The notes under the pieces: model-generated | Database searches by the model: none | What the model saw: the letters and a program-made list of their open reading frames with translations, nothing else | Told to the model about the DNA's origin: nothing | Position numbers and translations under genes: made by a program | Shown: in pieces, positions 1 through 24,789 of the stretch | Numbering within the stretch: the stretch's first letter is position 1 | How the letters are laid out: the number at the start of each line of letters is the position of its first letter | Assembly: GCF_011516835.1 (NCBI RefSeq) | Contig: NZ_WOTB01000015.1 | Coordinates: forward strand, 1 to 64,000 | Source of the DNA: Acetobacter musti | Lineage (GTDB): Bacteria; Pseudomonadota; Alphaproteobacteria; Acetobacterales; Acetobacteraceae | Direction of reading: 5' to 3' | DNA length: 64,000 nucleotides

Positions 1-56
1 TGGCCAGTGGCTTCTGAAAGGCCACATCAACAGGCCTTACAGAAGACCGCACACGA

Positions 57-2528
57 TCACACGTCAATATGGGTCAGAAAACTCTTGCATAACGGACGGC
101 AACCACAGAAGTCTTCCGGTTCATCCTGAACGATTTTCCGGGCATCACGATACCGGCTCAGCACACGAGAACTGACCGGCACGATAGCTGCATCAAGCTG
201 CTGTTGCGTTGCTTTCGGATTTGTCAGGATACGGGCCACCCGATCCACTTCAGGCTGATCGTACAGCCCGGCATCATCCAGTTTGTGGCGCAGGTTCACC
301 ACACAGTTCGGATCACTGAGATCTGCTAGTTCGGCCTTCGTGTAATATTGCTGGAAAGCCTTGAGGATGTCTTCGGGATCATTCTCGAAGTCGACCACGA
401 AGGTCATGTCCTTGCCCGGATAGCAGCGGTTCAGCCGCGAAAGCGTCTGCACGGCCTGAATCCCACCGAGCTTCCGGTCCACATACATGCCGCACAGCAA
501 TGGCTGATCGAAACCCGTCTGGAACTTGTTCGCCACGATCAGAATTCGCCACGGATCTTCGGCAAAAACCTCCCTCAGGTCGCGTCCTTTCAGCGCCGGA
601 TTGATGTTGCTTTCCGTAAATGGCTCCGGACCACTTTCCGGGTCATCTACCTCGCCCGAGAATGCTGCAAGAAGCCCGAATGGATAATGCTTTTCCTTCA
701 CGTAGCGATCCATGGCCAGCTTCCAGCGCACGGCCTCCTTGCGGCTGGCCGTCACGACCATAGCGCGCGCCTTACCACCAAGGAGAGGCTGCACATTCTG
801 GCGGAAGTGCTCCACCACAATCTGCACCCGTGCCGCGATATTGGTGGGATGCAGGCGCACCCACTTCATCAGCGCCTTTTTTGCTTCCGAAGCCTCCACT
901 TCCGTGTCATCCAGAATCTGTCCATCTTGGCTCAGGCGGAACGCCTGTTTCCAGGACACATAATTCTGCAAAACATCAAGAATGAAGCCTTCCTCGATAG
1001 CCTGCCGCATGGAATAGACATGGAACGCCTCAGGCTTGTTGTCCTCTCCTTTGGGCTGATCTGGATGCGGCAAACGCCCGAACAGTTCCAGTGTTTTGGC
1101 CTTTGGCGTAGCCGTGAAAGCAATAAAGGAAATGCCCGCGTCTGCGGCAGTCCTTTGCGCCATTTCCGCCGCCAGCAGGTCTTCCGTGCTGATCTCCCCA
1201 CCATCTGCAAGTTCTGCCAGTTCACCGGATGAAAGGGCTGCCTTGAGCTTGCTGGCGGATGTCCCGGTCTGTGAGGAATGGGCCTCATCAGCAATCACGG
1301 CGAAATGCTTGCCCTCGGTTGCCGCAAGCTGGCGGATTTCCTTCAGCGCGAACGGGAAAGTCTGAATCGTGCAGATAATGATTTTCTTGCCCGTATGCAG
1401 GGCTGCTGCAAGTTCCTGGCTCTTGCTGCCACCATTGCCGGAGATCGATGCCACCACGCCGCGCGTACGCTCGAAACTTTCGATGGTTTCCGAAAGCTGC
1501 CGGTCCAGAACCGTACGGTCTGACACCACAATGACAGTATCGAACAGCTTGTGATTGTGCGCGTCATGTAGATCGGACAGAAAATGCGCCGTCCACGCGA
1601 TGGAGTTTGTCTTGCCCGACCCGGCAGAGTGCTGGATCAGATAACGCTGCCCCGGCCCCTCCTTCAGAATGGTGGAGACCAGCAGCCGTGTGGCGGCAAG
1701 CTGATGATAGCGCGGAAAGATCCAGCCTGAGATCTTCCCCTTTTTCTTCACCGGAATGACGTAGCGGCCCAGAATATCCAGCCATGAGTCCGGCTGCCAG
1801 ACCTCCTGCCACAGATATGCCGTGGTGCCGGGATTGCCCGCACCGCCAGCGTTCCCCTGATTGAACGGCAGAAAGCGGCTGTGCGCGCCATCCAGATGGG
1901 TGCACATCATCACGTCACTGTTGCTGACAGCAAAATGCACGACCGCCCCACCAGGCACCGAAAGCAGCGGCTCCGCAGGTTTGCCAGGCGGTTTCGGCAG
2001 CCGGTCGGTGCAATACTGCTCCACCGCATCCTGAACTGACTGCGTGTAGTTTGATTTCAGCTCGGCTGTCGCAACCGGCACGCCATTCAGAAATAGCACC
2101 AGATCCAGCTCATTGCCGTTACTGGCCGAATAACGCACCTGCCGGACAGCGCGCAGGCGATTGGCGTCATAACGGTGCTGCAAATGCGGATTCATCGTCA
2201 GGGTCGGGCGGAACTGACAGATCTTCAGCGTTTTTGTCAGCCCGATAATGTCCAGACCATCACGCAGGACGACGAGCGCACCCCGCGTGTTCAGCGCGTC
2301 CCTTACCCGTTGGCATAAAACTGCGCTAGCCGAGGCTCCATGCGTTTTTTCCAGCGTTTCCCACGCCTCGGGCTCGCATTCGCGCACCCACGCCAGCAGA
2401 TCTTCGGGGAACAGGGCCTGCACCACGTCATACCGCGCGGCAGAGCCATCTTCATAAAGCCAGCCGGAACGTCCGAGGTAATCGCAGATTTCTGATTCCA
2501 GATGATACTCCTTGTGAAGATCGGTCAT
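57..2528 (-). CDS. hsdR: Type I restriction endonuclease subunit R, 3'-truncated
   Basis: Motor and nuclease subunit of a type I restriction complex; it translocates DNA with ATP and cuts far from the recognition site. Visible parts are a PD-ExK nuclease core (D142, E156 and K158 around TAELK), Walker A SAGSGKT at 301-307 and a DEAH box at 414-417, followed by the second helicase domain. The product is 823 aa, while family members are usually about 1000 aa. The last ~17 residues (from about FCGCRPL) do not look like HsdR, and the C-terminal helical domain that docks on HsdM is missing. An insertion or frameshift near position 110 is my inference. It starts inside the stop of the upstream gene (ATGA overlap). 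Restriction activity may be lost. Confidence 0.88.
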   Translation of the reverse strand: MTDLHKEYHLESEICDYLGRSGWLYEDGSAARYDVVQALFPEDLLAWVRECEPEAWETLEKTHGASASAVLCQRVRDALNTRGALVVLRDGLDIIGLTKTLKICQFRPTLTMNPHLQHRYDANRLRAVRQVRYSASNGNELDLVLFLNGVPVATAELKSNYTQSVQDAVEQYCTDRLPKPPGKPAEPLLSVPGGAVVHFAVSNSDVMMCTHLDGAHSRFLPFNQGNAGGAGNPGTTAYLWQEVWQPDSWLDILGRYVIPVKKKGKISGWIFPRYHQLAATRLLVSTILKEGPGQRYLIQHSAGSGKTNSIAWTAHFLSDLHDAHNHKLFDTVIVVSDRTVLDRQLSETIESFERTRGVVASISGNGGSKSQELAAALHTGKKIIICTIQTFPFALKEIRQLAATEGKHFAVIADEAHSSQTGTSASKLKAALSSGELAELADGGEISTEDLLAAEMAQRTAADAGISFIAFTATPKAKTLELFGRLPHPDQPKGEDNKPEAFHVYSMRQAIEEGFILDVLQNYVSWKQAFRLSQDGQILDDTEVEASEAKKALMKWVRLHPTNIAARVQIVVEHFRQNVQPLLGGKARAMVVTASRKEAVRWKLAMDRYVKEKHYPFGLLAAFSGEVDDPESGPEPFTESNINPALKGRDLREVFAEDPWRILIVANKFQTGFDQPLLCGMYVDRKLGGIQAVQTLSRLNRCYPGKDMTFVVDFENDPEDILKAFQQYYTKAELADLSDPNCVVNLRHKLDDAGLYDQPEVDRVARILTNPKATQQQLDAAIVPVSSRVLSRYRDARKIVQDEPEDFCGCRPLCKSFLTHIDV

Positions 2529-3487
2529 TCACCAGTGCCTTTTTCTGTTACGGCATCAAGCTGATGCGCCTGCCAGTCCCGAAACGAAATGTCCGGGTTG
2601 CTCTCCAGCTTCCACGCCGCAGGGCCACTTACGGAATGACCGAATACAACCGCAGCGGCTGCACTCGGACTTCTGAACGCGTAGTCCTTGGTAAACACAC
2701 GATGCGTTCCCGCCATTTGCAGGATGCCGGATCGCACCAGTTCGTCATGCAGCGGCTTATAGGAACTTGCCTGTGCGCTGTCCTCTCTCTGCCAGTCACT
2801 CCGGGCCTGCGATCCGGCTTCAACAATAAATTCGCCGTCCTGAAAAACAGCTTTTGCCGTCAGATCAATGCGCGGCTTGTGCAGGACAAACCGAACAGTC
2901 TCCGGCGCCGCATCGGTCCTCTCTCCTTCCGACGCTTCAAAGACCGGAACAGGCCGCGATGACCCCGCCGGACGGCTGCGCTGGATGAACATATCCACCC
3001 GGATGGCGGGCAGAACCACCATCAGGCTGGCAAGAAACGCCTCCATCTTGGCAATATCCGCTTCCGTCAGACCCGGCAGCTTTGGGGAGTTGCCATTATG
3101 CAGCGGCGTATGCCCGATCTCCCGCGCCATGACGATCAGCCGCGCTTCCAGATACTTCACATGCGCCTTGTTGAGCCGGTTCGCGCTGGCGGAAACCAGA
3201 ACAGCGGTTTCCCACCAGTCCTTGTCGCTCGCCGCCGCGTGCTGTTTCAGCCTGACACCAAGATCCTCGGCTTCCCCGATATAGGCGAAGTCCTGCCCGT
3301 CCTTCTCGCCCAGCAGTAGATAGACCCCGGCATAACCGGCCTCTTCCCGTCTGAGCGCTTCGGTCAGGCGCGTGCGCGGCGTGACGAACACATGCCCCGT
3401 CCAGTTGAAGAGTTCGGCGGTGATCATGCCGTCCGGATGACCGTCGATATAGAAAAGCTCCAGAGAGCGGCCCTTGGTGTCGATCAT
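2525..3487 (-). CDS. GIY-YIG nuclease family protein with DUF4357
   Basis: A 320 aa protein with a GIY-YIG nuclease-like domain (GVYLLLG at 54-60, YIGEAEDL at 69-76, followed by the usual Arg-rich helix) and a C-terminal DUF4357 domain at about 240-305 (FTKDYAF and SPSAAAAVVFG). GIY-YIG domains cleave DNA with one metal ion; the role of this two-domain family is not established. The gene sits between hsdS and hsdR and overlaps both by 4 nt, so it is probably translated with the restriction system. Possible roles are accessory nuclease, control of restriction, or a separate defence gene. Family assignment is firm, function is not. Confidence 0.85.
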   Translation of the reverse strand: MIDTKGRSLELFYIDGHPDGMITAELFNWTGHVFVTPRTRLTEALRREEAGYAGVYLLLGEKDGQDFAYIGEAEDLGVRLKQHAAASDKDWWETAVLVSASANRLNKAHVKYLEARLIVMAREIGHTPLHNGNSPKLPGLTEADIAKMEAFLASLMVVLPAIRVDMFIQRSRPAGSSRPVPVFEASEGERTDAAPETVRFVLHKPRIDLTAKAVFQDGEFIVEAGSQARSDWQREDSAQASSYKPLHDELVRSGILQMAGTHRVFTKDYAFRSPSAAAAVVFGHSVSGPAAWKLESNPDISFRDWQAHQLDAVTEKGTGE

Positions 3488-3753
3488 GCTGCGAGGGCCT
3501 TGCTCTGGGCACGAACGTCGATCTTGCCGGTGACGGCGGCGGAGATGAGTGCGGCACGGCGTTCTTTGAGCAGGGTAATAGCGTTAGTCGCTGTTAAAAT
3601 AAGGCTTTCAAATTCGGTAATCGCTCTAGCTAGGTATGTAACAATTTCATCTTGAATTTTGCGAGAAGGAAGGCAAATGGGAAAAGATGCGATTTGCGAA
3701 GGGCTGATATGAGGAACGCTAACTCCTGTCATTTCCGGAGCAAGAAAATGCAT
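3484..3753 (-). pseudogene. hsdS: HsdS specificity subunit, C-terminal fragment after frameshift
   Basis: This reading frame encodes the end of HsdS: the tail of the second target recognition domain (APEMTGVSVPHISPSQI), then the C-terminal conserved helix with KIQDEIVTYL and ERRAALISAAVTGKIDV, a standard HsdS ending. It continues the gene at 3729-4802 in another frame. Restoring one base near 3756-3766 joins the two into a protein of about 440 aa, a normal HsdS length. The stop overlaps the GIY-YIG start by 4 nt, which shows this frame is the ancestral end of the gene. The Met at 3753 is internal and has no credible ribosome binding site. Confidence 0.8.
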
Positions 3754-4802
3754 AAATTTGGCAATGAATATTGATACATTAGAAAAGAACTATTTAAATA
3801 TTTGCTTGATCGCAATAACCCTACCCGCTGCAAAAGCAAGCACGGTAAGTCTTTCTTATATATCTTTGAAATTCGTAGACCTGAAGAAATCCATGGGCGA
3901 TCCATGCCAATTACAATATCACCCTCTTTTAATTCATAAATATCAAGTCCATCGTCAATTTGACGTTTCCAATATACTACATCGTCCCAACGTAATTTTC
4001 CAACTCCGACATTAACACCACGAAGTAGAGGTACGCCCTCGCCATATTTCAAAAACTTGTCAGATGGAAACGCAAAACCGGATATGACTCTCACCACACG
4101 GCCTGCTGTCACAACATCCCACCCTTCCGGCACCATCCCGATCCACGGGATGCCTGAGTCCTTCATGGGGGCGTTGGGATTCAGGCCTTTTGTGACGGCG
4201 TGGGAGATGACGGCTTGCCGCTTTTCCGCAAGGAGGGCAATCAGCCGCTCCTGTTCGGCGATCAGGGCGTCAATCTTCCCGCACTCACGGTCAAGAAAGC
4301 TGGCTATTGCCTGCTGTTCGGGGAGTGGTGGAAGCGCGAGATAGATCAATTTCATTTCATTATAATTAGTGCTCCAAAGGTCAGCGACGATGCCTTTTCC
4401 ATATTTATAATACTCTTCCTGAAAGGCTGTTGATCTAAGAAGATAGTGACAAAAATGTCCATAAATTCTTTCAGAAGGGGAAATTACCGTATTTATTAAA
4501 GAGACAGACCCATCGTGGGGAGAAACTCCAGAGGAACCCCTTCTGTCTGATCTACTATTAATAACAAAATCTCCTGCAATTACACACTTTCTATTGTCAT
4601 TATCATCAGTTTTAGCTGCAGTTTCTAACTGAGGCACAATACCATTTTTGGTTACAGACAACGGGGGATAGTCCGCATCACTGACCTTCTGTCGACGTTC
4701 TGCAAAACACGAACCGATACGAGAAAGTGTCCACTCCGCAGGAACTCTCCCAATCCATTCAACCCCACTGTCCTTATAAGCCGGATACTTTGGGAAACTC
4801 AT
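3729..4802 (-). pseudogene. hsdS: Type I restriction specificity subunit S, N-terminal part, frameshifted
   Basis: HsdS selects the DNA sequence methylated or cut by the type I complex. This frame carries the first target recognition domain, the central conserved coiled-coil (LPPLPEQQAIASFLDRE, then IDALIAEQERLIALLAEKR), the linker GLNPNAPMKDSGIPWIG that mirrors the N-terminus KDSGVEWIG, and most of the second recognition domain. It then runs into an unrelated ending (NLCIFLLRK). The sequence 3756-3766 (minus strand TTGCCAAATTT) needs one extra base to read on as KFMHFLAPEMTG. The recognition domains are clearly more AT-rich than the neighbours, as is usual for exchanged HsdS domains. It overlaps hsdM by 4 nt. 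Confidence 0.85.
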
Positions 4803-6646
4803 GCCGAAAGCTCCCCAAGCACCCGCATGATTTTCGTAGTCACCTCTTTCAGATCCGCATCAATCTCCTCAAGCGGTCGCGGTGGCTCGAACACATAGAA
4901 ATACCGGTTGAAAGGAATTTCGTAGCCAATCTTTGTCTTGTCCTCGTCAATCCACGCATCAGGGGCATGGGGCAGGACTTCGCGTTTGAAGTAGGTGTGA
5001 ATATCCTCATTCAGCGGCACGTTTTCCGTGTCCCGCAGGCTGCTGTCAGGCACGGGCTTGCCCTTTGCCTTTCCGCGCTGACCGAGGACGATATTGCCGT
5101 CCTCATCACGCTGCGGACGCTCCACGGTGATGGTCTGGTAGCCAAACGCCTCATTGCGGAAGATGCGGCTCAACGGCGCAAGCCTGACTTTGCCGCTTTC
5201 AGGCCCTTCCGGTGGTTCCGCGCCCTTCATCACAACCTCACGCGTCTGCGTGCCATCGGCGGCGGTTATGGTGGCAAGCTGTGCTTCCTGCGCATCGCGG
5301 AACAGGCGCGTAACGAGGGTAATGTCGTCCTCCCCCATTTCCTTGCGCTTGGAGCCGAGGCTTTTCCGCATCTTCTGCCAGAAGGACGAGGCGTCGATCA
5401 GTTGCACCTTGCCCTTGCGGTTCTTTGGCTTGCGATTGGTGAGCACCCAGACATAGGTAGCGATGCCGGTGTTGAAGAACATATCGGTCGGCAGCGCGAT
5501 GATAGCTTCGACCAGATCGTTTTCCAGCACAAAGCGCCGGATTTCGGACTCGCCGGATCCAGCTGCGCCCGTGAACAGGGGTGAGCCGTTCAGGACGATA
5601 CCAAAGCGCGCGCTGCCATCCTTCGCCGGACGCATCTTGTGGACCAGGTGGAGCAGGAACAGCATGGAGCCGTCCGAGATGCGCGGCAGGCCGGGACCAA
5701 AGCGCCCATCATAGCCCAACTTGTCATGCTCAGCGCGGACGGCTTTCTCGACCTTCTTCCACTCCACGCCAAAAGGCGGGTTGGAGAGCATGTAATCGAA
5801 TTTATAATCCGCCAGTTCATCATCGGACAGTGTGTTGCCAAGGCGGATGTTGCTGACGTCCTGATTGCGGATCAGCATGTCAGCCTTACAGATGGCATAG
5901 GATTCCGGGTTCAGTTCCTGCCCAAACATGGTCAGGCGGGCGTCCGGGTTGTGGTCAAGCAGGAACTCTTCCGCGACGGAGAGCATACCCCCGGTGCCAG
6001 CCGTCGGGTCATAGATGGTGCGAACGGCGGCATTACCGGGGGTCAGCAGGCTGTCATCCTCGGCAAAGATGAGGTTCACCATCAGCCTGATGACTTCACG
6101 CGGGGTGAAGTGCTCACCGGCTGTCTCGTTAGAGGCCTCGGAGAACTTGCGGATCAGTTCCTCGAACACCTGCCCCATCTGGTGGTTATCGACGGCTTTG
6201 TCGCTGAGGTCGAAGCTGATAAATTTTTCGAGCACCAGATAGAGCAGGTTGGCCTTTGCCAGACGGTCTGTCTGCTCGGTGAAGCGGAAGTGGTCGAAGA
6301 TGTCACGGGCAGCGGGTGAGAAGGCGTTGATATAGGCGGAGAGGTTCTGGGTCAGGTTATCCGGATCGCCCAGCACGCCTTTCAGAGTGAAGTCGGATGT
6401 GTTCACGAACTTCAGACCAGCGGCTTTCTCCATGAAAGGCATGGGGTCGATGCCTTTACTCTCCCACTTCTCCTTTTCCTTTAGCACTTTGGCTCGGGTA
6501 GGAGCCAGAACGGCATCAAGGCGGCGCAGAACGGTAAAGGGCAGGATGATCCGACCGTATTCGGCTGGCTTGAAGTCGCCCCGCAGGAGATCGGCGACCT
6601 GCCAGATCATGGAGGACAGGGAGGCGGTCCGGGGTGTCGTGCTCAT
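4799..6646 (-). CDS. hsdM: Type I DNA methyltransferase subunit M
   Basis: N6-adenine methyltransferase subunit of the type I complex; with HsdS it protects the recognition site and with HsdR forms the restriction enzyme. The 615 aa protein has the N-terminal helical domain (about 10-140), the substrate-binding signature EHFTPREV at 178-185, SAM motif I DPTAGTGG at 213-220 and the catalytic NPPF at 289-292. Length and motifs are typical and no defect is seen. It is first in the minus-strand operon and overlaps hsdS through ATGA. With the specificity subunit split, methylation depends on whether the half-HsdS still folds. Confidence 0.95.
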   Translation of the reverse strand: MSTTPRTASLSSMIWQVADLLRGDFKPAEYGRIILPFTVLRRLDAVLAPTRAKVLKEKEKWESKGIDPMPFMEKAAGLKFVNTSDFTLKGVLGDPDNLTQNLSAYINAFSPAARDIFDHFRFTEQTDRLAKANLLYLVLEKFISFDLSDKAVDNHQMGQVFEELIRKFSEASNETAGEHFTPREVIRLMVNLIFAEDDSLLTPGNAAVRTIYDPTAGTGGMLSVAEEFLLDHNPDARLTMFGQELNPESYAICKADMLIRNQDVSNIRLGNTLSDDELADYKFDYMLSNPPFGVEWKKVEKAVRAEHDKLGYDGRFGPGLPRISDGSMLFLLHLVHKMRPAKDGSARFGIVLNGSPLFTGAAGSGESEIRRFVLENDLVEAIIALPTDMFFNTGIATYVWVLTNRKPKNRKGKVQLIDASSFWQKMRKSLGSKRKEMGEDDITLVTRLFRDAQEAQLATITAADGTQTREVVMKGAEPPEGPESGKVRLAPLSRIFRNEAFGYQTITVERPQRDEDGNIVLGQRGKAKGKPVPDSSLRDTENVPLNEDIHTYFKREVLPHAPDAWIDEDKTKIGYEIPFNRYFYVFEPPRPLEEIDADLKEVTTKIMRVLGELSA

Positions 6647-6679
6647 AAGAAAATCTGGTCCGATGTCGAAAATGTGGAA

Positions 6680-7078
6680 TCACTGGTTTTGAAAATGTTG
6701 CCGGAGCCAAGCCGCGAACGCGTCTTCCTCCATTGCGCCAGACGCAAGAGCCACCATGGCTTCGACAGCTTCCGGAGCGCCGACCTGCACACGAGTGCCG
6801 TTCAGCCGCAGGAAAAGGACGCAGCAACTCCAGGCTGTCCGCTTGTTGGCGTCGTTGAAGGGATGATTGCGCGCGATGCCATAAGCGTAGGCCGCAGCCA
6901 GAGTCGCGGTGTCCGGCGGATCGGATTCCGCATAGTGCCAGCGGTTTTCTGCGCGGGCTAACGCGCTATGCAGCAGATCTTCGCTTTTGAGCCCGTGGGT
7001 TCCGCCGTATTCTTTCAGGACCTGATCGTGCATGAACAGCACCGCGTCAGGTTCCAGAAACTCAGGCACATCCGGCAT
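6680..7078 (-). CDS. doc: Doc-type death-on-curing toxin (Fic fold)
   Basis: A 132 aa Fic-fold protein with the Doc-type motif HPFNDANKR at 72-80. Doc of phage P1 has the same NKR ending and phosphorylates EF-Tu, stopping translation, whereas canonical Fic AMP-transferases have G-x-G-N-G-R there. The gene starts at ATG 7078 and shares one base with the stop of the preceding antitoxin gene (TGATG), the usual coupling of toxin and antitoxin. Activity is inferred from the intact motif. It may act as a stabiliser of the island. Confidence 0.88.
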   Translation of the reverse strand: MPDVPEFLEPDAVLFMHDQVLKEYGGTHGLKSEDLLHSALARAENRWHYAESDPPDTATLAAAYAYGIARNHPFNDANKRTAWSCCVLFLRLNGTRVQVGAPEAVEAMVALASGAMEEDAFAAWLRQHFQNQ

Positions 7079-7305
7079 CAGCGCTTGGCCAGTTCCTGAA
7101 GAACGTCTGCCTGCTCACGCAGTGTCTCACGCGCCATCTGCATCTGGCGCTCAAGCTTGAGATTGCGCTTCACCAGCTTGATTCCGTCGGCCATTTCGAC
7201 CAGCGTGAGTTCCTGTCCGACCTCCAGACCAAGGCGGATACGTGTTTCCGCTGGAAGGGTAACACCGACAGAATTGCCCTGTTTGCGAACGACAACCGTT
7301 TCCAT
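7078..7305 (-). CDS. AbrB/MazE-family antitoxin
   Basis: A 75 aa protein with an AbrB/MazE swapped-hairpin DNA-binding fold at about 1-48 (VVVRKQGNSVGVTLP, then LGLEVGQELTLVEM) and a charged C-terminal tail (about 50-75) suited to masking a toxin. It should neutralise the Doc-type protein encoded next and repress its own operon. The ribosome binding site GGAGATGGG lies just before ATG 7305. Doc toxins were first described with Phd antitoxins; pairing with an AbrB-like partner is also seen in bacteria. Confidence 0.85.
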   Translation of the reverse strand: METVVVRKQGNSVGVTLPAETRIRLGLEVGQELTLVEMADGIKLVKRNLKLERQMQMARETLREQADVLQELAKR

Positions 7306-7319
7306 GGGCCCATCTCCAT

Positions 7320-7342
7320 ATTACATGTCGTAATACGTAACA
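7320..7342. promoter_or_regulatory. Imperfect palindrome upstream of the antitoxin gene
   Basis: The segment TTACATGTCGTAATACGTAA (7321-7340) has matching TTAC and GTAA ends and partial inner symmetry, about 12 of 20 positions. It lies 16 nt before the antitoxin start, where an autoregulated toxin-antitoxin operon would have its operator. Assignment is by position and symmetry only. Confidence 0.35.
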
Positions 7343-7407
7343 GGACCGCATCAGGGGTGACAAGCGCAAATGCCCCTTTAGCAATGCTGATCAGACAGAA
7401 TTGCGAG

Positions 7408-7926
7408 TCAGATGGTTCCCCAGCCTTTGATGATTTCGATCCACTCGCTTGGTGAAAGCTGGCTTGGACCATGCGGTTCCGGGTATCGACGCCCTGAAGG
7501 CAGCCGTTTCTCCTGAATATGTATATCTCTGGACGCCTTCTGCGCCATCCTGTCACTTACAACCTGCACACCACGGAAAATGGCGCGGGCCATATGCTTT
7601 CCGGCTGCGCGAACCTGATCGGTGGCCTTGATAAGCAGCCTGTAGGTATTGCTGGTTCTTACCCATCGACTACCAACCAGCTTCCTGCGGCAGGTCCGCT
7701 CGACCAGCCCGAGTTCGTAGGCACGTTCAAGCGCTCGGATGACCGTTCGCACGGAATACCGACAGGCCCGAGCAATGGCATCGTGGCTTGGATAGAGCCC
7801 ATCCGCACCCAGAAAGGTGGCGAGCGTCATAAGCACAGATTTTTCGGATGGTTTCAGCTGGTGGTCAAAATAGAGCCCCAGAACCTGCTTGCGGAAAGCC
7901 GCCTTGACGGAAGCATGGCGGCTCAT
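7408..7926 (-). CDS. Helix-turn-helix domain protein
   Basis: A 172 aa protein with a winged-helix HTH of the HTH_36 type at about 25-85 (KPSEKSVLMTLATFLGADGLYPSHD, here broken up as SEKSVLMTL, YPSHDAIARACRYSVRTVI and RALERAYELGLVERT). Such proteins occur in plasmid, phage and island modules, often near replication or partition genes. The C-terminal half (90-172) is basic and not recognised. It lies just inside the island boundary, upstream of the toxin-antitoxin pair on the same strand. Its target is unknown. Confidence 0.7.
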   Translation of the reverse strand: MSRHASVKAAFRKQVLGLYFDHQLKPSEKSVLMTLATFLGADGLYPSHDAIARACRYSVRTVIRALERAYELGLVERTCRRKLVGSRWVRTSNTYRLLIKATDQVRAAGKHMARAIFRGVQVVSDRMAQKASRDIHIQEKRLPSGRRYPEPHGPSQLSPSEWIEIIKGWGTI

Positions 7927-8034
7927 CGCTCTGCACTCCCGGTCGAAACCAGAATACGATGAAAAAAACTTGCCTGAAAGGTCCGGAGATCCGTGACAAC
8001 AGAGTCAGTTTCTAGTACGCTGCTCACACGCATT

Positions 8035-8057
8035 GCACGATTTTTCCTTGATCGTGC
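8035..8057. other. Short perfect hairpin at island edge
   Basis: GCACGAT (8035-8041) and ATCGTGC (8051-8057) form a 7 bp stem around a 9 nt T-rich loop, between the HTH gene and the tRNA fragment. It could be an integrase arm-site or a structural remnant. No T-tract follows the stem, so a terminator is unlikely. Confidence 0.3.
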
Positions 8058-8117
8058 GTGCCGTTTTTGAACGTGTTTGACTCTGTAAGTCTCTGATTTC
8101 GTTGGGGTCAGCCGGTT

Positions 8118-8162
8118 TTGACATGGTAGGGCTCACAGATTCAATCCCTGTTGCGCCCACCA
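8118..8162 (+). other. 3' fragment of tRNA-Val(GAC), probable island attachment site
   Basis: The plus strand carries the anticodon loop TTGACAT (GAC at 8120-8122), the 3' anticodon-stem strand GGTAG, a variable loop, a T arm with loop TTCAATC (8140-8146) and the acceptor end TGCGCCCACCA (8152-8162). This matches the 3' half of tRNA-Val(GAC). The upstream bases cannot form the 5' strand of the anticodon stem, so identity begins at the anticodon loop, a common crossover point for tyrosine integrases. The T stem has an A-C mismatch, as expected of a displaced copy free to drift. The functional tRNA should be on the plus strand left of the window. Confidence 0.72.
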
Positions 8163-8335
8163 TCCGGTCGGTGGAATCTGTAAATTTTTTGTTCTGATGC
8201 CGGCTGGCTGGATTGTTTTTCCCAGAAGGCTTCGTCCTGTGCTTTTCGTATCCTGACAAACAGTGCGACAAGGGCCGCATTAATGGCTGTTACGATAACG
8301 GCGGTCGCCGCGCAGTAAGAGATGATTGCCGACAT
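8141..8335 (-). CDS. Small membrane protein, hypothetical
   Basis: A possible 64 aa protein with one membrane segment (about 3-27, alanine/valine/isoleucine rich) followed by a basic, polar tail. Codon use looks coding, with many C- or G-ending codons. Its last codons read antisense through the tRNA fragment, so its present 3' end may be a product of island insertion. The upstream AGAGAT is only a weak ribosome binding site. No family recognised. Confidence 0.35.
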   Translation of the reverse strand: MSAIISYCAATAVIVTAINAALVALFVRIRKAQDEAFWEKQSSQPASEQKIYRFHRPDGGRNRD

Positions 8336-8450: not shown

Positions 8451-9098
8451 TCAGTCGCCTTTCGGGAGCACGAACAGATCCGGAGAGGCGCTGCCTCCGG
8501 AGACGAGCTGCGACAGTGTCACCTGTGTCTGACGCCCCTGCGCGTCCACAACGACCCAGCCACGCAATACAAGCGACTGCTCGTCAAACGCCATAACGAG
8601 CGTACCTTCTCCGGGTGACGCCGTTCTGACGGCTGCGATCTGGATGATGCCGTTTTCGTGGCGAAAACTGGTGACCGTTACATCGCCCGAGAGAGAGATG
8701 TGGGCGCCGAGCAGAAGGCTCAGAGGAGTCCGTTCGAGCGGAATTTCGGTTGTCTGATCCAGCTGCGAGTCACGAAACACGACTTTCCCGTCATTGGCGA
8801 CAAGAAGAAGCGGGCTGGGTTTATCATACTGAAAACGCATACGGCCTGGTCTTACCAGCCAGACGTCTCCGGTTGTCTTCTGGCCATCAGCCGCGGTCTG
8901 TTCGAAGCGTCCACGCAGGGTCGTCACGGCATTCATTCTGTCCTGCACGCGATCGACCCAGCCCTGGTCCGCAGGAGAGAGAGCCGCTGCGGCCGCCTGC
9001 GTGGGTGATATCCCGTTACAGCCGGCGAAGAGAAGCAGGGCACCGACTGCCCATCTCCGGCAAACGGAAAAGCGGAAAAACATCCGGGAACCTTCCAC
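8451..9098 (-). CDS. lolA: LolA-family outer membrane lipoprotein carrier
   Basis: LolA shuttles lipoproteins across the periplasm from LolCDE to the outer membrane. The 215 aa product has an N-terminal export signal, then the LolA pattern: QDRMNAVTTLRGRFEQTAADG near 51-70 (broken up here as LRGRFEQ), the GDVWLVRPGRMRFQYDKPSP beta hairpin, and the ending DLFVLPKGD. Met6 (MFFRF) is an alternative start at 9083. The signal contains LLLFAGC, a lipobox-like string, which is unusual for a soluble carrier; a signal peptidase I site after AAAAA is the other reading. It is last in a minus-strand run after the flavoprotein gene. Confidence 0.85.
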   Translation of the reverse strand: MEGSRMFFRFSVCRRWAVGALLLFAGCNGISPTQAAAAALSPADQGWVDRVQDRMNAVTTLRGRFEQTAADGQKTTGDVWLVRPGRMRFQYDKPSPLLLVANDGKVVFRDSQLDQTTEIPLERTPLSLLLGAHISLSGDVTVTSFRHENGIIQIAAVRTASPGEGTLVMAFDEQSLVLRGWVVVDAQGRQTQVTLSQLVSGGSASPDLFVLPKGD

Positions 9099-24699: not shown

Positions 24700-24789
24700 T
24701 GGCGGATGGGGTGGGATTCGAACCCACGGTACGCTTACACGCACGCTGGTTTTCAAGACCAGTGCCTTCAACCGCTCGGCCACCCATCC
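24700..24789 (-). tRNA. tRNA-Ser(UGA)
   Basis: A 90 nt class II tRNA on the minus strand. Acceptor GGATGGG pairs with CCCATCC, followed by encoded GCCA. The anticodon arm CTGGT-CTTGAAA-ACCAG holds TGA, the long variable arm (GTGCGTGTAAGCGTAC) marks tRNA-Ser, and the T arm is GTGGG-TTCGAAT-CCCAC. It reads UCA and related serine codons. Confidence 0.96.

Follow-up and report, generated by a model that had tools for sequence, protein, structure and literature searches.

The window analysed here, 64,000 nucleotides of Acetobacter musti DNA, begins at the first base of contig C15 of an assembly in 138 contigs. Its first 109 bases (1..109) belong to an IS-like repeat, of which they form one end; the repeat is multicopy, with matches at other contig ends, and has inserted into hsdR. 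There follow, all on the minus strand, the N-terminal part of hsdR (110..2528), a gene for a DUF4357 protein with a weak GIY-YIG likeness (2525..3487), hsdS (3484..4802), an open frame for the type I methyltransferase HsdM (4799..6646), a Doc/Fic family toxin (6680..7078), a small antitoxin-like ORF (7078..7305; doc partner or AbrB/MazE type, its best model lying just under the cut-off) and a winged-helix/HTH protein that resembles phage replication initiators (7408..7926). Beyond them, on the plus strand at 8118..8164, lies the 3' half of a tRNA-Val(GAC), running from the anticodon loop through the CCA end (8162) and two further bases. On its other side, a lolA-like gene (8451..9098, minus strand; best model 70 bits, cut-off 112) belongs to the chromosomal flank.

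By searching the assembly with positions 8000-8300 of the window, the origin of the tRNA fragment may be elucidated. The best other match of 8118-8164 is C9:150180-150226 (96% over 47 bases, E 9.4e-15), which falls in a complete tRNA-Val(GAC) called by ARAGORN at C9:150150-150224 on the plus strand, and a weaker match is the tRNA-Val(CAC) on contig C36. A displaced tRNA-Val(GAC) 3' end at 8118-8162, with homology starting at the anticodon loop and no matching 5' half, had been proposed from the letters of the window, and this was borne out to the base: the likeness to the intact tRNA ends, going upstream, at the first T of the anticodon loop, ARAGORN calls no tRNA at 8118 in the window, and both the start and the CCA end are exact. 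The two bases past CCA (TC) are also common to both copies, and 2 of the 45 core bases are changed in the fragment. When the 45-base GAC core is sought with up to 3 mismatches, only these two places are found in the assembly, the intact copy with 0 and the window copy with 2 mismatches.

Because the window begins at the first base of its contig, the left end was sought on another contig. Directly downstream of the intact tRNA on C9 there is a tyrosine integrase gene on the minus strand (L004:14176-15393; PF00589, E 5e-15), so that both elements that the original prediction had placed to the left, a plus-strand tRNA-Val(GAC) and an adjacent integrase, exist, their leftward position following from the two hsdR parts that link C9 to the window. 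The integrase ORF can be extended upstream, yet 7 of the 21 relatives' loci aligned (those with genome handles) have a stop between residues 89 and 100, and the start was therefore put at residue 102, giving 405 aa. Among 11 named loci of this integrase family, eight, from Acetobacter, Acidomonas, Brytella and Gluconobacter, have an identity of 74% or more, and the other three one of 44-50%. Phage and plasmid records hold integrase relatives in 60 and 45 cases, all below 60% identity, and a search of solved structures gave 7 sequences, mainly XerC/XerD-like recombinases and integrases. Three Gluconobacter loci (L119, L120 and L121) share a break of the integrase frame at residue 457, and in all three the frame stops some 80 bases short of the tRNA.

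Contig C9 breaks off 5.5 kb past the tRNA, within hsdR: its end holds the end of HsdR (to C9:155667), and the window opens inside the other part of the gene. Two relatives have hsdR as one uninterrupted reading frame (1,023 aa), in which the two parts lie on neighbouring bases; in L163, window position 110 falls at 4702 and C9:155667 at 4701, and in L161, which also holds a related integrase and an intact tRNA-Val, they fall at 3786 and 3785, respectively. The last bases of C9 and the first bases of C15 are repeats that recur at 7 and 6 further places, respectively, all of them contig ends in this assembly, and they have a 13-base stretch in common, in inverted orientation; they can be read as the two ends of one IS whose interior is unseen. 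Since the two island ends are on different contigs, their continuity is taken from hsdR and from these repeat ends, and the abutting of the hsdR parts in the relatives gives the extent of the island across both contigs: C9:150180-155667 (5,488 bp), window 110-8117 (8,008 bp) and an IS of unseen length. On this reconstruction the island is about 13.5 kb plus an IS, and the IS is presumably all that is missing between C9 and the window.

The island carries restriction and toxin genes, as predicted, with hsdR, hsdS, hsdM and Doc all inside it. The hsdR gene is split by the IS, and the hsdS frame is broken into two ORFs (3729-4802 and 3484-3753), while hsdM remains open; the C-terminal part of hsdS that is present on its contig in G024 (L161) is one open frame. 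Judged from its reading frames, the restriction system is doubly damaged. The C9 part of the island carries, in addition, a MobV-like ORF, KptA/Tpt1 and a resolvase. The MobV-like ORF (L004:16249-17529) is below both curated relaxase cut-offs, with 20.2 bits where 25.5 are required and 33.8 where 100 are required, and its full-length identity to a protein annotated as a plasmid recombination protein is 47%; it is possibly a mobilization gene or a captured plasmid piece. Its first 234 residues are approximately 73% identical to a stretch of small Acetobacter pasteurianus plasmids. No phage structural genes were found among the 10 island proteins scanned against Pfam, a set to which the small ORFs and the IS interior do not belong. 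Among viral contigs, a search with the HTH protein yielded a single relative (47%, over a part only), and the right end of the island matched two plasmid records, over the tRNA part only.

By an integrase search over 397 genomes of the family and a core search over 20 chosen genomes, further islands at tRNA-Val(GAC) were found. Seven islands show both ends (G000, which is the present island, G007, G024, G041, G084, G126 and G414), and G015 holds an eighth. Both ends lie on a single contig in G126, 26.1 kb apart, and in G414, 17.6 kb apart, whereas in the present assembly they are on different contigs, linked by way of the split hsdR. The right ends of the seven islands align, most closely in the last 120 bases, and so does the start region of the HTH protein beside the fragment. 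In G126, Doc is shared at 93% and the HTH protein at 90%; where cargo was compared, it differs between some of the eight islands. Judged from these comparisons, the eight islands form one family, all of them at the same tRNA gene and with their ends conserved. Within the genus, 10 of 49 genomes have a second core copy without a 5' half at up to 3 mismatches (G000, G007, G013, G015, G022, G024, G025, G041, G043 and G046), a count that excludes G008, which has two intact inverted copies, and the extra matches of G023, which have another anticodon. Over the 34 bases compared, the right ends of G013, G022, G025, G043 and G046 are of other kinds, and these seem to be distinct elements. In four of them (G013, G022, G025 and G046), 40-53 kb separate the two core copies and the right ends are unlike, so that this tRNA is apparently also a target of other, larger elements. 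In G126, a second tRNA-Val-like gene (L157:528-604) with a 3' fragment 3.5 kb off (4096-4143) lies to the left of the hutG-like gene, possibly a remnant of another element.

The integrase frame extends into the tRNA gene, on its antisense strand, and meets a stop codon there (ending in GATGIEPVTPTMSR before the stop), which places the attachment site within the integrase reading frame; the frame thus crosses the attachment core, as in phage Mx8. A tRNA is adjacent, by ARAGORN, in 19 of the 22 integrase loci with genome handles, the present one included, a set that contains some remnants or otherwise broken genes; in 16 of the 19 the frame ends inside the tRNA (tRNA-Val or tRNA-Gly) in the same register, in one (G024) it does so in another register, and in two (G414 and G011) it ends before the tRNA. 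At the other end of the islands, the antisense frame beyond the core is open for 37 codons in seven of the eight Val islands and for 32 in G024, where there is an early stop. The integrase of the excised circle would therefore cross attP and gain a 37-codon tail that the integrated form lacks. In the present island, this tail and its stop (8005-8007) would come from 8005..8117 on the minus strand, the putative right arm of attP.

Arm-type sites are part of the general model of tyrosine recombinase attachment sites. Over 120 bases on each side of the core in 14 elements (8 at tRNA-Val and 6 at tRNA-Gly), CACGC/CACGT motifs recur at near-fixed places on both sides. The left motifs are at +74 and +85 in the Val elements (shifted by 1-2 bases in G024 and G015) and around +51 and +62 in the Gly elements, with G234 at +63 and +74, and G123 and G011 having one each. 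On the right, one motif is at +58/59 in 13 of the 14 elements (G011 is without it), and an inverted copy is at +87/88 in all 14. In total, 26 forward and no reverse motifs are found on the left, against 3.4 forward expected from single-base shuffles, and 20 forward and 16 reverse on the right, against 3.1 forward expected. In the window, the putative arm sites are an ACTTA motif at 8086..8090 on the minus strand (+28 from the core, where 12/14 elements have such a motif), CACGT at 8071..8075 on the minus strand (+43; 7/8 Val and 0/6 Gly elements), CACGC at 8056..8060 on the minus strand (+58) and the inverted copy at 8027..8031 on the plus strand (+87). Direct alignment of the left and right arms is weak, shuffled right arms reaching the observed score in 24 to 856 of 1000 cases for Val and in 2 to 120 of 1000 for Gly; the case for arm sites therefore rests on recurrence at near-fixed positions. 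Since the elements are related, not independent, and the pairwise arm alignments are individually weak, the sites are called putative arm-type sites. The left sites lie inside the integrase gene, where the motif pair, on the antisense strand, codes for the RANSVL/RASCV stretch of the protein. Beside the fragment, an inverted repeat at window 8027-8060 has stems unchanged in seven islands and a loop altered in G084.

One reading of the crossing frame is that the tail present only in the circle alters integrase activity, so that integration would switch the state of the enzyme, by analogy with Mx8, for which a review gives a precedent (PMC6070905). The near-constant length of the open frame past the core, given above, also speaks for it. 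The substitution patterns point elsewhere. The integrase body has pN/pS of 0.11-0.15 (residues 102-490, 6 pairs among 4 elements) and is therefore maintained as a protein. Silent changes are unusually scarce in its last 51 codons ahead of the tRNA, where pS is 0.028-0.085 compared with 0.18-0.47 over the whole stretch. In the 37-codon tail, on the other hand, pN/pS is 0.50-0.93 in 15 of 28 pairs among the 8 elements; seven pairs have amino-acid changes only, three have a single silent change only, and three are identical. The tail is thus conserved overall with changes that are not mainly silent, a pattern that gives no support to selection on a peptide and, with small counts, points to constraint on the DNA, as expected of attP arms. 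In addition, the early stop in G024 shortens the tail, and just five of the eight islands have an integrase frame that continues into the core in register (G000, G041, G084, G126 and G007, in the last of which the gene is in pieces); in G024 and G414 the frame does not arrive there in register, and in G015 no more than 13 codons are open ahead of the tRNA. The extra tails of six paired tRNA-Gly relatives are 4-11 codons long and mutually unlike. Left out of this comparison were L209 (a fragment in G332 with a matching integrase at tRNA-Val; 79 codons), L216 (truncated where its contig stops) and L217 (G049; 11 codons). As an attP joint, G049 was rejected: its integrase reads into a tRNA-Gly fragment, not an intact tRNA, and the stretch beyond is without the right-arm pattern. 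A regulated change of tail at integration is on balance unlikely.

A broader idea, improbable to a similar degree, is that the integrase family of acetic acid bacteria and their relatives has folded the attachment site into its own gene: the codons before the tRNA would double as arm-type sites, the final codons would come from the tRNA antisense strand and the stop from across the crossover, and the circle protein, differing from the integrated one, might set the direction of the reaction. A literature search with the peptide motifs of the tRNA-encoded tails found no papers.

The state of the site before integration can be sought in relatives. A LolA match is present in all 49 genus genomes searched, 48 of them at E of 5.7e-50 or better. 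In 29 relatives' loci, read for 1.5 kb on each side of lolA where the contig permits, tRNA-Val(GAC) is present in 4. Among 14 lolA neighbourhoods of up to 19.5 kb each, six contain it, within 0.6 kb in G010, G020, G006 and G040 and farther away in G034 and G002; eight have no tRNA-Val, and the two stretches shortened by contig ends are among these eight. In all six neighbourhoods with the tRNA, a hutG-like gene is on its other side, as on C9. The last base of the tRNA is 282 bases from the first base of the lolA match in G010 and 292 bases in the present genome, and the interval is alignable. In the closest relatives, an intact tRNA-Val(GAC) thus lies between the hutG-like gene and lolA, which corresponds to the empty site. 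The expectation that the tRNA would abut lolA in genomes lacking the island therefore holds for the closest relatives, while in the wider set lolA is its neighbour only in some. The case named against the original prediction, relatives with the same restriction genes at this site and no tRNA-Val next to lolA, did not occur among the loci read; the two genomes in which these restriction genes turned up, G024 and G007, have them on one contig with the integrase family and one end of a tRNA-Val(GAC) island.

Based on the results presented above, the fragment is, with a probability of approximately 95%, the attR of a genomic island integrated at tRNA-Val(GAC) between the hutG-like gene and lolA. 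The two ends, the integrase, the link through the split hsdR, the empty site in relatives and the seven sister islands can be read from the sequences themselves, and from them we infer that recombination happened as proposed. The tyrosine integrase would have recombined the island attP with the tRNA gene at the anticodon loop; the 3' half brought by the island would have restored the gene at the left end, beside int, and the original 3' half would have been displaced to the right end, about 290 bp from lolA, and drifted by two bases. In the excised circle, the integrase frame would run on across the island's right end. That the fragment is instead left over from an older, separate island, the one at the intact tRNA ending elsewhere (tandem or nested islands), is very improbable. 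The two changed bases, compared with cores identical at 45/45 in the attR of six sister islands, and the use of the same tRNA by other elements in the genus would suit such a leftover; however, hsdR reaches across the gap between the contigs, the right end next to the fragment is of the same sequence family as those paired with this integrase family on the single contigs of G126 and G414, and the assembly has only two core copies at up to 3 mismatches. That the likeness arose by chance, or that the fragment is a decayed tRNA gene without a link to integration, is excluded for practical purposes by the E value of 9.4e-15, the exact anticodon-loop start, the integrase, the sister islands and the empty sites.

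The biology is ordinary for a tRNA-borne island. The Islander paper (PMC4383910) describes the same signature: an intact tRNA with an integrase marks one end, a displaced 3' fragment of like orientation marks the other, and the crossover is in the anticodon loop. The present island differs in that its ends are on two contigs and that its type I restriction genes have suffered from an IS and from a frame break. The anatomy of an attP inside int is mildly unusual and a modest addition, with Mx8 as precedent. The Islander paper also notes that the Mx8 and SSV integrases extend across attP. In Mx8, according to the review (PMC6070905), attP is inside int and integration gives int a new 3' end; the reading frame crosses the attachment site in both cases, whereas the site here is a tRNA gene. 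In the SSV-type archaeal 'suicidal' integrases, as described in PMC8371274, the attachment site is likewise inside the gene and integration splits it, while here only the last residues change. No report of an integrase-attP overlap in tRNA-borne islands of acetic acid bacteria was found in the literature searched, a coverage that leaves out most subscription journals.

These results confirm that the boundary of an island can be recognized in raw sequence by a short piece of a tRNA, and they map both ends of an island that a fragmented assembly conceals. The overlap of integrase gene, attachment arm and target tRNA offers a DNA-level reason for the conserved C-terminal RANSVL/RASCV stretch, and caution is due when integrase alignments are read, as C-terminal conservation may reflect constraint on the DNA. 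In Acetobacter, the phage phiAP1 targets tRNA-Ser(TGA), and phiAP1-like integrases differ by a 21-residue C-terminal extension, as PMC8566455 reports. An acetic acid bacterium and the 3' end of a tRNA as target are common to both systems, phiAP1 being a phage at tRNA-Ser and the present element an island at tRNA-Val(GAC). A tRNA-Ser(TGA) lies on the minus strand of the window at 24700-24789.
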